Below are positions 19,869 to 25,241 of a stretch of 26,942 bases of DNA, one piece after another. The notes under the pieces were generated by a model. The model was given only the letters and a program-made list of their open reading frames with translations, was not told where the DNA came from and did no database searches. The stretch is from IMG/VR virus record IMGVR_UViG_3300025093_000100, positions 1-26,942 of that record, one strand, 5' to 3'. The stretch is from a virus. Position numbers and translations under genes: made by a program. Position 1 is the stretch's first letter; each line of letters opens with the position of its first letter.

Positions 19869-21038
19869 TCAGATGGTGCCGTCATCAGAGACGAAGCTGA
19901 ATGCGGTTGTAACGAAGTCCTTGTTCAGGATCTCGAAGCCAGCATACAGTTGCCAGATGAGGATGATGAAGCGGCTGAAGTCATCGTTGTTGTTGATCAG
20001 CACCTGAGCGTTGGGGCCGCCGATACCAACACCAAGGGCTTGAGGACCAAAGAAGTAACCTTGGGCAACCTCTTCAGAAGCATAGGTAGCAGCACCACCG
20101 GAATCAAAGGTGGCCTGAACGTTCTTGGTCGGGAAGTTGGTGGACTCGAAGAACTTCACGCCTTCAAACTGGACGCCAGTAGGCATCACGGGCTCACCAG
20201 CCAGGAAGTAGGCTTGGCCAGCCTGGGGACCCATGTAGAAGCTGGAGTTGTTAGGCATCATGGGATTGCCCATGTACATGCCTTGACCAGGATTACCGGC
20301 GTAACGTGCGATCTCACGGAAGTCACTGTCACGACGCAGATGCATCATGAAGGTGGGGTCGCAGATGCAACGATAGAGACCGTCAGCGTAGGTAGGAACG
20401 TTACGCTTGCGGAGATCCTTGACAACAGTCAGAAGGTCGGTGCGAACAGAGAACTGCTGGACCTGATTGCCATACTCAGCAGAGGTGTAAGCAATACGGC
20501 CAGAAGCGTCTTTGGTCTTACCACCAGCGAAATAGTAACCACCTTGAGAAGTAGAGGCAGCACCGTTGGCTTCAGCTTTGGAGAGTTCGTCAATGAAGAC
20601 GCGATCACGCCAGCGGCGATAGTCATCGAGCAGGGTCAGAGAACCGATGCTCTGGTGGAACATATTCAGGTTACCGGTATCCAGCAGCAGACGCTGAGCG
20701 GTAACGAGAGTTTCGCGGGCAATTTTAAAAGTAGAAGGCTGGGTCGGATCACCCGGATCCGCAGGGCCGGTGTACTCTTTCAGCACAACAAGCACCTTCT
20801 CTTTGGTGATGTTGCGGCTGTTGGCGGTACCAATGGTCTGGTCGGACACGCGCTCACGGCTGTCCTTGGTACCAGGAGTACCCCAGAACTTATAGCGGTC
20901 TAACTGAACAGTCTGACCGGGCTGACGAGTGAAGTCATGGACCACCACAGGCTCTACAGCCATTTCGGCAATGTAGGCAGGATGCGGACGGTAAAGTTCC
21001 GCACCAAGAATCTTGGGAAAGTCGGTATCAATGAACAC
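19869..21038 (-). CDS. Major capsid protein (HK97-fold, N4 gp56/P22-like)
   Basis: This would be the coat protein forming the head shell. The product has 389 residues from GTG 21038, with GGAGG 10 nt upstream. Features typical of N4-gp56/P22-type coats are PGQTVQLDRYKFWG near residue 38, a long central helix with RETLVTAQRLLLDTGN, then YRCICDPTFMMHLRRDSDFREIARY around 220-245 (the usual IHPxxxxDLRxDxxW block) and GVQFEGVKFFESTNFP near 290. Position after portal and scaffold agrees. There is no sign of a long N-terminal delta domain. A shell assembled with the separate scaffold at 21163-22131 is inferred. The exact family needs a profile search. Confidence 0.85.
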   Translation of the reverse strand: MFIDTDFPKILGAELYRPHPAYIAEMAVEPVVVHDFTRQPGQTVQLDRYKFWGTPGTKDSRERVSDQTIGTANSRNITKEKVLVVLKEYTGPADPGDPTQPSTFKIARETLVTAQRLLLDTGNLNMFHQSIGSLTLLDDYRRWRDRVFIDELSKAEANGAASTSQGGYYFAGGKTKDASGRIAYTSAEYGNQVQQFSVRTDLLTVVKDLRKRNVPTYADGLYRCICDPTFMMHLRRDSDFREIARYAGNPGQGMYMGNPMMPNNSSFYMGPQAGQAYFLAGEPVMPTGVQFEGVKFFESTNFPTKNVQATFDSGGAATYASEEVAQGYFFGPQALGVGIGGPNAQVLINNNDDFSRFIILIWQLYAGFEILNKDFVTTAFSFVSDDGTI

Positions 21039-21129: not shown

Positions 21130-21157
21130 AGCCGGTAATTTTACTAAACTACCGGCT
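21130..21157 (-). terminator. Hairpin between scaffold and capsid genes
   Basis: AGCCGGTA (21130-21137) pairs with TACCGGCT (21150-21157), 8 bp with a 12-nt loop, starting 5 nt after the scaffold stop. No clear T-run follows on the minus strand (GCTAAAATTTG). It may therefore be a weak terminator, an attenuator, or an mRNA-stabilising or processing hairpin upstream of the capsid message. The 124-nt gap holds no other clear element. Confidence 0.5.
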
Positions 21158-21162
21158 ATTTA

Positions 21163-22131
21163 TCACTCCATTACAAACAATTTGTTTGCAACAGTTTGAG
21201 GCTGAGCTTGGTTCAGAAGGCGCCAGGCATTCTGAGGGTCAACATTCATTTGTTCGCTGAAGCTGCCCCAGAAGTTTTCAGGAGACTGGGGAGCTGCTGC
21301 TGCCGGAGGGGCAGGGAACTGATTGTTAACTGCAGGCTGAACTTGCTGGGTGGGATAACCACGAGTTTCAAGCTGAGCTTCGTTTTCGTACACGGGGTAC
21401 GGACCTTCCGGACCAAAGAACTTCAGAGTGTAATCACTCAGAACATCAGGGTTGGTCAGGATTTCGTTGTAAGCGAGGTTCTCTTGGTGCTCATTTACAG
21501 CGAAGTTGGCATAGCCTTTAATCGCCTCTTGAGCGCGACTTCCCCACGCCACGGCGCTGTCGAGCATTCCTTCCAGGTTTAGTGCGTACTGGTTCAGAAC
21601 TGCTGGGGCCTCGATCCCGAACGCGTCCATCACCTGACGGCTCTCGTTGCTCATTCCCACCAGGTCGGCCACCTGCTCCAATGATGGAGTTGAGGAGGTT
21701 TGGGAATAGTTGGGCGAGGATTCCTGGCTGGGAGACCAGGTCAGCGGAGCCGATTGTGGCGTAACTTGGTTGCTGGGTTGACCGTAGTTCGCCGGGGTAT
21801 ATTGTGTCGTCGGCTGAGAGGGTTGACCCTGGAACGGGGACTGGACTGGAGCGCTCAGTAGATTCACCACCTTGTTGAACGCCGACTCCCAGGGGTTGGC
21901 CTGAGGTGCCGCCGATTGGGATTGGGGGGCGTACTGAGTAGGGCTGGATTGGTAGCTGGGGGCTGCCTGAGGTACCGCTTGGGGGTAGCTCGTACCCACT
22001 TGATACTGACCCGGAGCCGCCTGCGGTGCCACCTGCTGAGGTGCCGGAGCTGCCGCCACGTAGCTGCTGGGGGCGACTGCCGCTGGTACTTGGCTCGTCG
22101 GTTGGGTCGATTGGACGGTAGCGTCCTGCAT
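21163..22131 (-). CDS. Scaffolding-like protein, starts inside the portal gene
   Basis: The product has 322 residues. AAAAGGAG lies 7 nt before ATG 22131, strong support for this start. Residues ~1-155 are extremely rich in Gln, Ala, Pro and Ser (APAPQQVAPQAAPGQYQ), probably disordered. From about 158 the sequence becomes ordinary and helical (VADLVGMSNESRQVMDAFGI, LEGMLDSAVAWGSRAQEAI), ending in WGSFSEQMNVDPQNAWRLLN. A disordered, helical Q/A/P-rich protein directly before the capsid gene fits a scaffold. Codons 1-204 are read in a different frame inside the portal gene. Confidence 0.65.
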   Translation of the reverse strand: MQDATVQSTQPTSQVPAAVAPSSYVAAAPAPQQVAPQAAPGQYQVGTSYPQAVPQAAPSYQSSPTQYAPQSQSAAPQANPWESAFNKVVNLLSAPVQSPFQGQPSQPTTQYTPANYGQPSNQVTPQSAPLTWSPSQESSPNYSQTSSTPSLEQVADLVGMSNESRQVMDAFGIEAPAVLNQYALNLEGMLDSAVAWGSRAQEAIKGYANFAVNEHQENLAYNEILTNPDVLSDYTLKFFGPEGPYPVYENEAQLETRGYPTQQVQPAVNNQFPAPPAAAAPQSPENFWGSFSEQMNVDPQNAWRLLNQAQPQTVANKLFVME

Positions 22132-23881
22132 AACTCATCTCCTTTTGTAAAGCTTCTAACGTCCGATATAGATATGGTGTCAAATCTAATCGGGGATCCG
22201 CAGCCATCGGAAGATCCGGTGATTGCGGGTGAGGGGTTTGCATCATTCCCCCCACAAGGCGAGCGAATTGAGCGTATGCACCCTGTAGTTCGTTCACCAT
22301 CCTGAACGGGAATCCGGATAACATCTCGGCCCGCTCCTCATCCGTTTTTGAAGGGAAGAGGTACTTCAGTGCTTCAATGCTATCAACACCTAATTCCTGT
22401 AGGTTACGTACAACGATGGAATTGTTCAAGATATCTTGAGTAGAGTCCTCATAAACAGGACCCATCCAACGCCATTGAATTGTAACGTCACCATCGGGAA
22501 TTAGTCCCATGACACCAGGAGGAATCTGTTGTGTCTGAAGAATGGCCATCATTAATTGTTTGACCCTTTCTTCAAACATCTCCATGGCCTGGTTGTAAGC
22601 GACCATGTCTTCTTGAGTAGATGTCTCAGGTAGATCCATTGGTTTCTCCAGCCCTGCGGCTGCAGCCAATGTTTCCTTAAACATCTTTTCTTCCTGATAA
22701 ATAATTAACTCCAGACAACGACAGATACCATAAGTATATATCGAGTTTGCTTTCTTTTTCGATGTTGCGGCCACACGACCAAACAATGATTTGTATTCAG
22801 TTGCCGTTACGCCAGCAGAAATTGATAGTTCATCAACGCCACCAAGAGCTGTCCTGATCTCTTCTCGATACTGCCTTGAGAATGCATTCTGGTCACCAGT
22901 AATAGCATCTGGGACAATGTAACCAACTCGGTCATTGGGTTCCAGGTTGGCAATAACTCTTGGAACTCTTATCTGACCATCGATTCCTCTAGAGATAGGA
23001 TCTGCCTTAAACCTTGATTGACTTAAAGGTCCGGCACCACCAAACCCTGAGTTTGCTGCAATAGACGGACGTTGGACAACTGCTTCTCCCCCAGCTTCCA
23101 TCAAATCAGTTTTTGGCCTGGATGAAAGAAGAGTTGGATTACCAAAAAATTGCACATTCTTCCGCATGGTGCGGATCATTTCATCATGCGTGCAGATGTG
23201 ATTTGCTAATGCATCGAATTCACCGACGCCTTCTGCAGAGAAACCTTTTGCATTGTTAAAGATTTCTACGCATGGAATAAAACCAAGTGTATTTTTGAAT
23301 GTTTCAGTTTTACCACCCATCGCCTGATAGTTGGTATCAAAAGATAGTTCACCCTCTGAATGCGTTTCTTCAATCGTCTTGCGTTTAATTGATAAACGAA
23401 TATATCTCTTGGCACCAGCATTGCCCATGCTTGCTGGACCATTGATGCTAGCAGTATCAATATCTTGTTGATATCCCATGCCACGACGAACTTTATAGCT
23501 GTAGATGATCACGACTTCATCCAGCTCGCCGTCAATGTTGTAGAAGCTGCGATACTCGTGGCGACGGAAATAGTACAACCTGTAGTTTGTTTGTGTAGGC
23601 CGGATATAGAACATACCCTGGCCATCACACAGAAAATAATCCCAGATCGAATCCAGGCGTGTGTCGAGTTGGTTGTATTTAATTACACGGGTGACAAAAT
23701 CTTTGCGCTGATTACCAAAGTTATCTTGAGCTGGAAAAAATTCAACACCCTGACGGATGCCGAAAAGTTTCATCTGAGCTAAATGTGACGCAACGATTCC
23801 AGTATCAATTGCATCCCCACCATCCTTTTCGAGGTAGGAATCAATGATTTCTTTAAGTCTGGATTTTGCGTCGCCAGCCAT
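21518..23881 (-). CDS. Portal protein with long overlapping C-terminal frame
   Basis: The portal is the dodecameric ring at the head vertex through which DNA is packaged. The product has 787 residues from ATG 23881, which overlaps the upstream stop. Portal-like features are QLDTRLDSIWDYFLCDGQGMFYI, the YRLYYFRRHEYRSFYNIDGE strand region, NVQFFGNPTLLSS near 255, and the ATEYKSLFGRVAATSKKKAN helix around 370 with an LELIIYQEE helix after it. The portal body seems to end near residue 583. The remaining 204 residues, Gly/Ser/Pro- then Arg-rich, are read from the same DNA as the N-terminus of the scaffold. Whether the tail is made or tolerated is unclear. Confidence 0.85.
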   Translation of the reverse strand: MAGDAKSRLKEIIDSYLEKDGGDAIDTGIVASHLAQMKLFGIRQGVEFFPAQDNFGNQRKDFVTRVIKYNQLDTRLDSIWDYFLCDGQGMFYIRPTQTNYRLYYFRRHEYRSFYNIDGELDEVVIIYSYKVRRGMGYQQDIDTASINGPASMGNAGAKRYIRLSIKRKTIEETHSEGELSFDTNYQAMGGKTETFKNTLGFIPCVEIFNNAKGFSAEGVGEFDALANHICTHDEMIRTMRKNVQFFGNPTLLSSRPKTDLMEAGGEAVVQRPSIAANSGFGGAGPLSQSRFKADPISRGIDGQIRVPRVIANLEPNDRVGYIVPDAITGDQNAFSRQYREEIRTALGGVDELSISAGVTATEYKSLFGRVAATSKKKANSIYTYGICRCLELIIYQEEKMFKETLAAAAGLEKPMDLPETSTQEDMVAYNQAMEMFEERVKQLMMAILQTQQIPPGVMGLIPDGDVTIQWRWMGPVYEDSTQDILNNSIVVRNLQELGVDSIEALKYLFPSKTDEERAEMLSGFPFRMVNELQGAYAQFARLVGGMMQTPHPQSPDLPMAADPRLDLTPYLYRTLEALQKEMSYAGRYRPIDPTDEPSTSGSRPQQLRGGSSGTSAGGTAGGSGSVSSGYELPPSGTSGSPQLPIQPYSVRPPIPIGGTSGQPLGVGVQQGGESTERSSPVPVPGSTLSADDTIYPGELRSTQQPSYATIGSADLVSQPGILAQLFPNLLNSIIGAGGRPGGNEQREPSGDGRVRDRGPSSSEPVRTKPGRNARQRRGVGKSRSRGD
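22139..22146 (-). promoter_or_regulatory. Shine-Dalgarno for scaffold inside the portal frame
   Basis: AAAAGGAG is set 7 nt before ATG 22131. In the portal frame it reads QKEM, so this site is embedded in coding sequence and is the main evidence for the overlapping start. Confidence 0.75.
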
Positions 23882-24119: not shown

Positions 24120-25241
24120 TTAACGCAACCCTTGGATATAATTATACAAAGCTCTTTCTGCAGCATTTCGACGATTTACCTTTATTTCATTGCCTTGCTT
24201 TGATAATCCATACTCTGAAGGATCAAAGCCATATTTCTCTAAAGATTTTTCTGTCTCAGCCCTTAAACCTTTAGGGTTAATTAATTTATTTCCTTGAAAG
24301 GCTCTTGCGGCTGCTCCTGCTAAACCTGTTAATGTATTAACACCTCTATCAATTAATTCACTTGTAACACCTTGAACAAAACCTGGTCCAGCGGTTGTCA
24401 GTCCATAAGTTCCTTTTGCTAAAATGTTTTGCTTTGTATTCCAAGGGATGCCCGCCTCTTTTGCAATGGGAATGCCAAATCTATCTGCCATTATTTCTTT
24501 CCTTAACATTTGTTGATTGGCACCAATCCCACTTAATGCACCTTCTAGACCTGCGCCAAGCAGAGATCTATCTTCGTTTTTCAAAAAACCAAAGCCAGCT
24601 ACAACTCCCCCTGGGCTAGAAGCTCTTATTAAATCTCTGTTTCCTATTTGCTGCATTGCCTTTTGGTTTCCAAAATCAAATCCTTTGGGTAAAGAATAGT
24701 CATAAGGTCGTTTAACTGCATCAACTGCGTGTCCAAGCTCATGTGCAATTACCCATCCTGGAGTTTTGGGAGTAACAAAAACAGTTGGCTCAGTTATACC
24801 AAACAAGGGATTGGCATTCATAAATAAAGGACCGCCAGCTAAAGCACCAAAACTTCCACCAGAAAGATCCACCTTCGTTCCGGGTTTGCCTTGTTTTACT
24901 TCACCCACTTCCCTCCCTGGAACAAAGGGACTCCAGGTTCCTGGTAATCCTGCTTTCTCCATTCGTTTTGAGGCTGCATCCATCAAAGCAGGTAATTGCT
25001 TCATGGTTACCGCTTCGCTGGCGGACTCAACCATTCGCTTAGCTGCTTTTCCTACTTTTTGTTGTGCAGTTTTTAATATTTTTGGTGCGTATATTCCAGC
25101 AACATCTGCTGGGTTGACACCACTGACTACATTGCTCAAAGGGTTTCCCGTACCACCACCTGGCAACCATCCTCCTAGCTGTTTATCAGCTTCTGAATAA
25201 CCTTTCTTTATTTTATTTAAGAGGCCTTGGAATAGTTCCAT
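24120..25241 (-). CDS. Zinc metallopeptidase (HExxH), between terminase and portal
   Basis: The product has 373 residues; ATG 25241 overlaps the stop of the upstream gene. The zinc-peptidase signature is HELGH at 167-171, preceded by a WVIA helix, with a third ligand candidate Glu249 in KEIMAD, giving a gluzincin-type HExxH...ExxxD set. Residues 1-110 are a separate part, a helix then a Gly-rich linker and KAAKRMVESASEAV helix. After the active site come helical segments, including YGLTTAGPGFVQGVTSELIDRG. It sits directly upstream of the small basic protein and portal, where tailed phages may keep a prohead protease, so a maturation role is an attractive inference. Release of DNA or host damage are alternatives. 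Confidence 0.7.
   Translation of the reverse strand: MELFQGLLNKIKKGYSEADKQLGGWLPGGGTGNPLSNVVSGVNPADVAGIYAPKILKTAQQKVGKAAKRMVESASEAVTMKQLPALMDAASKRMEKAGLPGTWSPFVPGREVGEVKQGKPGTKVDLSGGSFGALAGGPLFMNANPLFGITEPTVFVTPKTPGWVIAHELGHAVDAVKRPYDYSLPKGFDFGNQKAMQQIGNRDLIRASSPGGVVAGFGFLKNEDRSLLGAGLEGALSGIGANQQMLRKEIMADRFGIPIAKEAGIPWNTKQNILAKGTYGLTTAGPGFVQGVTSELIDRGVNTLTGLAGAAARAFQGNKLINPKGLRAETEKSLEKYGFDPSEYGLSKQGNEIKVNRRNAAERALYNYIQGLR

Follow-up and report, generated by a model that had tools for sequence, protein, structure and literature searches.

A 614-nt stretch of phage DNA very probably encodes parts of two functional proteins on the same strand and in two frames, both maintained by selection: the C-terminal tail of a portal protein and the N-terminal arm of a putative scaffolding protein. 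The window, that is, the whole stretch of DNA analysed (26,942 nt, record IMGVR_UViG_3300025093_000100), contains a portal ORF of 787 aa at 21518..23881 (-) and a putative scaffolding protein ORF of 322 aa at 21163..22131 (-), the latter in frame +1 relative to the former. Both ORFs have 21518..22131 (-) in common, where portal residues 584-787 and scaffold residues 1-204 are read from the same nucleotides and the portal frame continues for 204 codons beyond the scaffold ATG. The first-pass annotation had given exactly this overlap, and its coordinates were correct to the base. The low complexity it had noticed in both products and the higher GC content it had judged by eye were confirmed by measurement. 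The portal tail was rich in Gly (18%), Ser (15%), Pro (12%), and Arg (9%), and the scaffold part within the overlap in Ala (15%), Gln (15%), Ser (14%), and Pro (13%). The GC content of the overlap was 61.7%, compared with 44.3% in the portal core and 50.1% in the scaffold-only part on either side, and the mean values in 65 representatives were 61%, 45%, and 52% respectively.

The portal ORF matched PHROG 20475 (virion structural protein, head and packaging) over residues 2-742 with an E value of 8e-294. The AlphaFold model of this protein was of low confidence (pLDDT 39), with the tail predicted to be disordered. When this low-confidence model was searched with Foldseek, the best 28 PDB matches were all phage portals or portal-tail complexes, including those of E1004, 80alpha/SaPI1, cyanophage P-SCSP1u, T7, and Pam1, with low TM-scores and a best E value of 4.6e-6. 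The 787-aa ORF is predicted from these matches to carry the portal fold. The matched solved portal chains were 392-564 residues long, so the residues beyond about 583 are an addition to the shared fold; we accordingly refer to residues 1 to about 583 as the core and to residues 584-787 as the tail. The tail comprises a motif at residues 703-734 around SYATIGSADLVSQPGILAQLFPNLLNS (21680..21775 (-)), where the portal frame is the stricter of the two, and an Arg-rich basic end, the last 50 aa (21518..21670 (-)), which is loosely constrained in sequence. The net charge of these last 50 aa ranged from +4 to +10 in 120 of 120 representatives (mean +7), and the mean pI of the whole tail was 9.3 in the same set. 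A 373-aa gene lies just upstream of the portal gene (24120-25241 (-)); no family match was found for it, and it was near-complete in only 1 of the 120 representatives tested, whose flanks were limited.

The 322-aa ORF is likely a scaffolding protein, a designation derived from its position, charge, and helix content rather than from homology. It sits directly between the portal gene and the gene of the major capsid protein (389 aa, 19869..21038 (-); PHROG 1357 major head protein, E 2.5e-17), the same order as in T7 and P-SSP7. The portal gene itself stands between the gene of the terminase large subunit, as judged from the terminase annotated upstream in S-EIV1, the nearest named relative, and the capsid gene downstream. 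The protein is acidic, with a pI of about 4.1 and a mean net charge of -18. Its model was of low confidence (pLDDT 43) and contained little confident structure: the first 150 aa or so were predicted to be disordered, the centre and C terminus helical, and helices were placed at residues 80-92 and from 151 on. These properties agree with an acidic, helical or disordered profile of about 260-320 aa, although scaffolds have no single such profile. Searches of PHROGs, Pfam, and PDB returned no family match, which is weak evidence because scaffolds diverge fast. Among relatives, scaffold residues of about 120-165 occurred in two quite different versions, e.g. ...NYSQTSSTPSLEQVADLVGMS... and ...NSSPTYLVGSSAQEAHAEVNSAIADYLDLS..., and the portal motif encoded opposite them was near constant. 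An inverted repeat, AGCCGGTA/TACCGGCT, was observed at 21130-21157, in the interval that separates the scaffold stop from the capsid start; the hairpin was kept in other genomes of the group with compensating changes (GTCGGTA/TACCGAC), and some clades carried a different, possibly coding, sequence at this position.

The start of the scaffold ORF was examined next to its conservation. The ideal Shine-Dalgarno sequence reported 7 nt before the ATG at 22131 was indeed present (AAAAGGAG, 22139..22146 (-)). The 19-nt start site CAAAAGGAGATGAGTTATG was identical in 149 of 150 distinct loci, the remaining locus having one T to C change, and the synonymous rate in the portal codons over the Shine-Dalgarno sequence was 0.01-0.02 of background. 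The scaffold frame thereby has an independent initiation signal, a strong ribosome-binding site of its own within the portal gene.

The conservation of the overlap was determined in relatives of the window. The polar freshwater cyanophage S-EIV1 (KJ410740) was 81% identical in the portal core and 87% in the capsid protein, and among 50,697 phage records there was no other convincing portal match. The window falls within the S-EIV1 lineage, a widespread set of viruses of cyanobacteria. Five viral-contig scans and one genome-contig scan, together with S-EIV1 and the window, yielded at least 348 loci, 202 of them distinct; the best 80 loci were taken from each scan, so that the S-EIV1 lineage is over-represented in the sample. 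In 170 distinct loci the portal stop and scaffold start could both be read, and the overlap was found in all 170, with a length of 497-641 nt except in one locus (L106, 185 nt). The portal of that locus is 643 aa long, and since its stop adjoins the contig edge at a distance of about 9 nt, we treated it as an assembly-edge artefact and rejected it as a counter-example. Among 150 tabulated loci the frame was always +1, with exactly one in-frame ATG. Relatives whose portal ends near residue 583 had been named in advance as evidence against overprinting; a comparison of portal lengths in the 170 loci revealed none. The portal stop codon was TAA in 75, TGA in 41, and TAG in 4 of 120 genomes, at several nearby positions, indicating that the extension persists even as the precise point at which it ends shifts.

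GenBank annotates the S-EIV1 portal at 767 aa, long tail included. We observed that the putative S-EIV1 scaffold is annotated as AHV82225 (about 134 codons), which begins only at 59863, past the portal stop, and that the full ORF is 325 aa (record 59287-60264) and starts at 59287 inside the portal gene. The S-EIV1 capsid gene (KJ410740, record 60784-62010) also appears to be misannotated: an intact 383-aa ORF runs from a GTG at 60859, and in GenBank its place is taken by AHV82227, an antisense ORF, and AHV82228, a truncated ORF in the sense direction.

The portal core of every relative found was at least 77% identical to that of the window, and the minimum nucleotide identity among representatives was 69%, i.e. 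all belonged to one lineage. The event in which the overlap originated was therefore not caught in the act, and the sequences date the overlap only as far back as the common ancestor of the S-EIV1 lineage. No outgroup beyond this lineage was obtained in the five outward viral-contig scans or the genome-contig scan, in 398 genomes of the phylum of a matching MAG, or by tblastn in phages down to E 10. All of these searches stayed within the S-EIV1 lineage, and we weighed which frame came first on grounds other than an outgroup. The portal tail is probably the younger of the two, because known portals end near the core and the scaffold attains a usual length only with the overlap. The reverse order, with the scaffold N-terminal arm born within an already long portal gene, is the less probable course of events. 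In its favour, 113 of 120 genomes had a codon choice in the portal frame that lay nearer to the usage of the portal core. However, the pooled codon-usage correlations with the core were weak for both frames (0.17 and -0.02, neither significant) and reversed with scaffold-only DNA as the yardstick (0.28 versus 0.41), and the portals of T7 (536 aa) and P-SSP7 (522 aa) end near the core while known scaffolds are about as long as the one here. As a clock for the older frame, codon usage was equivocal.

We further investigated if both frames of the overlap were under selection. The 120 representatives used were less than 97% identical in nucleotide sequence. A tree was built from the portal core only, ancestors were reconstructed by parsimony, each substitution was classed by its effect in both frames, and the synonymous rate of the portal core set the scale for the expected counts. 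Because multiple hits at fast sites are undercounted by parsimony, the depletion estimates should be conservative. Substitutions silent in both frames occurred in the overlap at the neutral rate (1.04). Those that changed the portal but were silent in the scaffold were reduced to 0.36 (1239 seen, 3449 expected), those that created a portal stop but were silent in the scaffold to 0.02 (5 seen, 235 expected), and those that changed the scaffold but were silent in the portal to 0.21. As a control, the same virtual frame was read through scaffold-only DNA; the rates of 0.81 for changing, 1.06 for stop-creating, and 0.76 for silent substitutions indicated a frame without constraint. In the third frame within the overlap, stops occurred at 0.38, about equal to the other changes in that frame. 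An earlier run of the same test with 65 genomes agreed with the run of 120. Synonymous-site constraint had been suggested as the check on overprinting, with its absence from the portal frame as the refutation; the portal frame was constrained as well. The first-pass annotation was thus upheld in its suggestion of overprinting, which is strongly supported by purifying selection in both frames across 120 genomes, and its further proposal that the scaffold docks on the portal is taken up below with less confidence.

These rates bear on whether the portal tail might be a tolerated by-product, with the scaffold frame alone functional and the portal frame open by accident of a GC-rich, low-complexity sequence. 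The low complexity and predicted disorder of the tail would fit such an accident. When scaffold codons were permuted within the overlap, the portal frame stayed open in about 2.5% of shuffles on average, so that an accident is conceivable in one genome. When scaffold-frame codons were instead resampled from the codon usage of the window, a mean of 8.6 portal-frame stops arose and 0 of 3000 sequences were stop-free. The overlap DNA contained on average 7.3 stops in the third frame and 13.0, 5.1, and 2.4 in the three antisense frames, compared with 0 and 0 in the two coding frames. The open portal frame across the overlap is more than chance. The accidental explanation is, moreover, contradicted by the portal frame being open in 170 of 170 loci, by the depletion of portal-changing (0.36) and portal-stop (0.02) substitutions against 1.04 for those silent in both frames, and by the portal frame being the stricter one opposite scaffold residues 120-138 (0.17 versus 0.53). 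It is refuted in general by the dual-frame test, could survive only for the last 40 or so residues of the tail, and is as a whole highly improbable.

Equally improbable is that only the portal frame functions in the overlap and that the downstream protein begins after the portal stop. This is how GenBank annotates S-EIV1 (AHV82225), but the Shine-Dalgarno sequence and ATG are invariant, scaffold-changing substitutions that are silent in the portal fell to 0.21, and scaffold residues 82-101 were almost unchanged (0.02). A protein of 322 aa also resembles gp9 of T7 (307 aa) and of P-SSP7 (265 aa), whereas the short annotated form would not. That the constraint acts on RNA or DNA structure instead of on two proteins is likewise highly improbable, the dual-frame test having told the two cases apart: a frozen island with somewhat stronger predicted folding does exist directly upstream, but nearly every class of substitution there is at about 0.3, whereas those silent in both frames are at 1.04 in the overlap, and it is only in the portal frame that stops are specifically avoided (third-frame stops, 0.38).

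Judged by substitution rates in sliding windows, the constraint on the two proteins is interleaved, with the strict motif of one opposite the looser linker of the other. Portal residues 703-721 were strict (nonsynonymous rate 0.17) where scaffold residues 120-138 were loose (0.53), and over portal residues 722-734 the portal-nonsynonymous rate was 0.31 versus 0.40 for the scaffold. Conversely, a scaffold motif at residues 82-101 (ESAFNKVVNLLSAPVQSPFQ, 21829..21888 (-)), which covers most of the helix predicted at 80-92 and in which the scaffold frame is the stricter, was near frozen (0.02) and the opposite portal residues 665-684 were looser (0.29). In the last segment of the overlap, the Arg-rich portal end had a rate of 0.57 and the scaffold was strict at 0.075 (65-genome run). 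This alternation gives the portal tail the look of a flexible tether that bears a single conserved helical motif and ends in a basic segment; the conserved parts of the scaffold are for the most part encoded opposite this tether.

Upstream of the scaffold start, the portal gene contained a synonymously frozen island of about 260 nt (22132..22393 (-)), which ends at that start. Up to the ribosome-binding site its synonymous rate was 0.2-0.4 of that in the rest of the portal core; comparison values were about 0.55 in the capsid gene, 0.65 in the next gene, and 0.8 in scaffold-only DNA. Its onset was sharp at the TTA codon of portal residue 497 (22393), and this codon and its neighbours were identical or nearly so in 120 of 120 genomes. 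A hidden extra ORF was rejected as the cause, in that no alternative frame behaved as coding and all were interrupted by conserved or frequent stops. The predicted folding of the island was modestly stronger than elsewhere (mean z about -1.8 versus -0.6 to -1.1). Strong RNA covariation was not found in it, with double changes in only 2 of 65 predicted pairs; an Rfam search of the island gave no match; and the 24-mer and its core, considered as a possible repeated promoter motif, had no second copy in the window. A promoter, an RNA leader, and a processing site are the candidates, and we suggest that an element controlling the scaffold lies within the portal gene itself.

How the tail might act can be outlined from these features. 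Each of the 12 portal subunits would carry it as a flexible extension pointing into the procapsid. The short conserved helical motif (703-734) and the basic end may assist in recruiting the acidic scaffold or in orienting it around the portal, or may contact packaged DNA. The frozen 260 nt could act in cis, as an RNA leader, internal promoter, or processing site, to set how much scaffold is made relative to portal. We propose this scheme in its details, island included, only tentatively, rating it at a little below even chances. In related portals the C terminus points to the inside of the capsid, and twelve basic tails would therefore meet the acidic scaffold during procapsid assembly, or DNA later. 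Docking of the portal tail on the scaffold, which the opposite charges and low predicted order make plausible, may occur, and here too the balance tips slightly against. In P22, assembly and incorporation of the portal ring are driven by scaffolding protein interactions, although the basic motif studied there was reportedly not a scaffold-binding site (PMC13386823). It is unlikely, though worth stating, that the overlap as such is a functional device, in which the tail evolved opposite the scaffold arm as its physical partner and the unique 260-nt element sets the portal:scaffold ratio; if so, one locus would code for both partners and their stoichiometry.

Whichever mechanism applies, dual coding by portal and scaffold links two genes at the core of head assembly in a tailed phage with a genome of about 80 kb, and it is fixed in a lineage found in both freshwater and marine settings. 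Annotation missed it: the GenBank scaffold is truncated, and no family was found for it in searches of PHROGs, Pfam, and PDB. The locus is a natural test case for the way in which one stretch of DNA can serve two essential proteins through alternating strict and loose segments, and it makes testable the idea of a portal tail, born by overprinting, that binds scaffold or DNA. In the literature searched, which lay outside the S-EIV1 genome paper, no dual-coding overlap of portal and scaffold genes was described for tailed phages, and this pairing is apparently unreported, overprinting itself being long known.

Long dual-coding overlaps are usually linked to tiny viruses, with genome compression given as the reason. 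Viruses are the classical setting for overprinting and terminal overlaps, beginning with phiX174, and the reviewed pairs include phiX174 A/K and the polymerase/surface genes of hepatitis B virus (PMC8227390). The overlap described here resembles these pairs in having one strand and two frames, both selected, with products of a kind that is often disordered, but differs in that its partners are a portal and a likely scaffold in a tailed dsDNA phage with a genome of about 80 kb. In phiX174, which has no portal, the internal scaffold gene B lies inside A and the external scaffold gene D contains E; its scaffold genes thus overlap too, but with a partner other than a portal. The in-frame nested scaffolds of lambda (Nu3 in C) and herpesvirus (UL26.5) likewise start inside a neighbouring head gene, yet they have frame and amino-acid sequence in common with it, whereas the present pair is read in different frames and its sequences are unrelated. 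The P22 portal carries a long C-terminal barrel, an ordered helical tube encoded in its own DNA. Both are large podovirus-type portals with a C-terminal extension, inside the capsid in P22 and presumably so here, but the present tail is rich in Gly, Ser, Pro, and Arg, predicted to be disordered, and dual-coded. T7 (genes 8-9-10) and P-SSP7 (gp8-gp9-gp10) have the same gene order and portal fold. Their portals of 536 and 522 aa compare with 787 aa here, and the portal-scaffold junction is a 99-nt gap with promoter phi9 in T7, a 1-nt overlap in P-SSP7, and an overlap of 614 nt in the window, where the suggested control element lies within the portal gene rather than in a gap.
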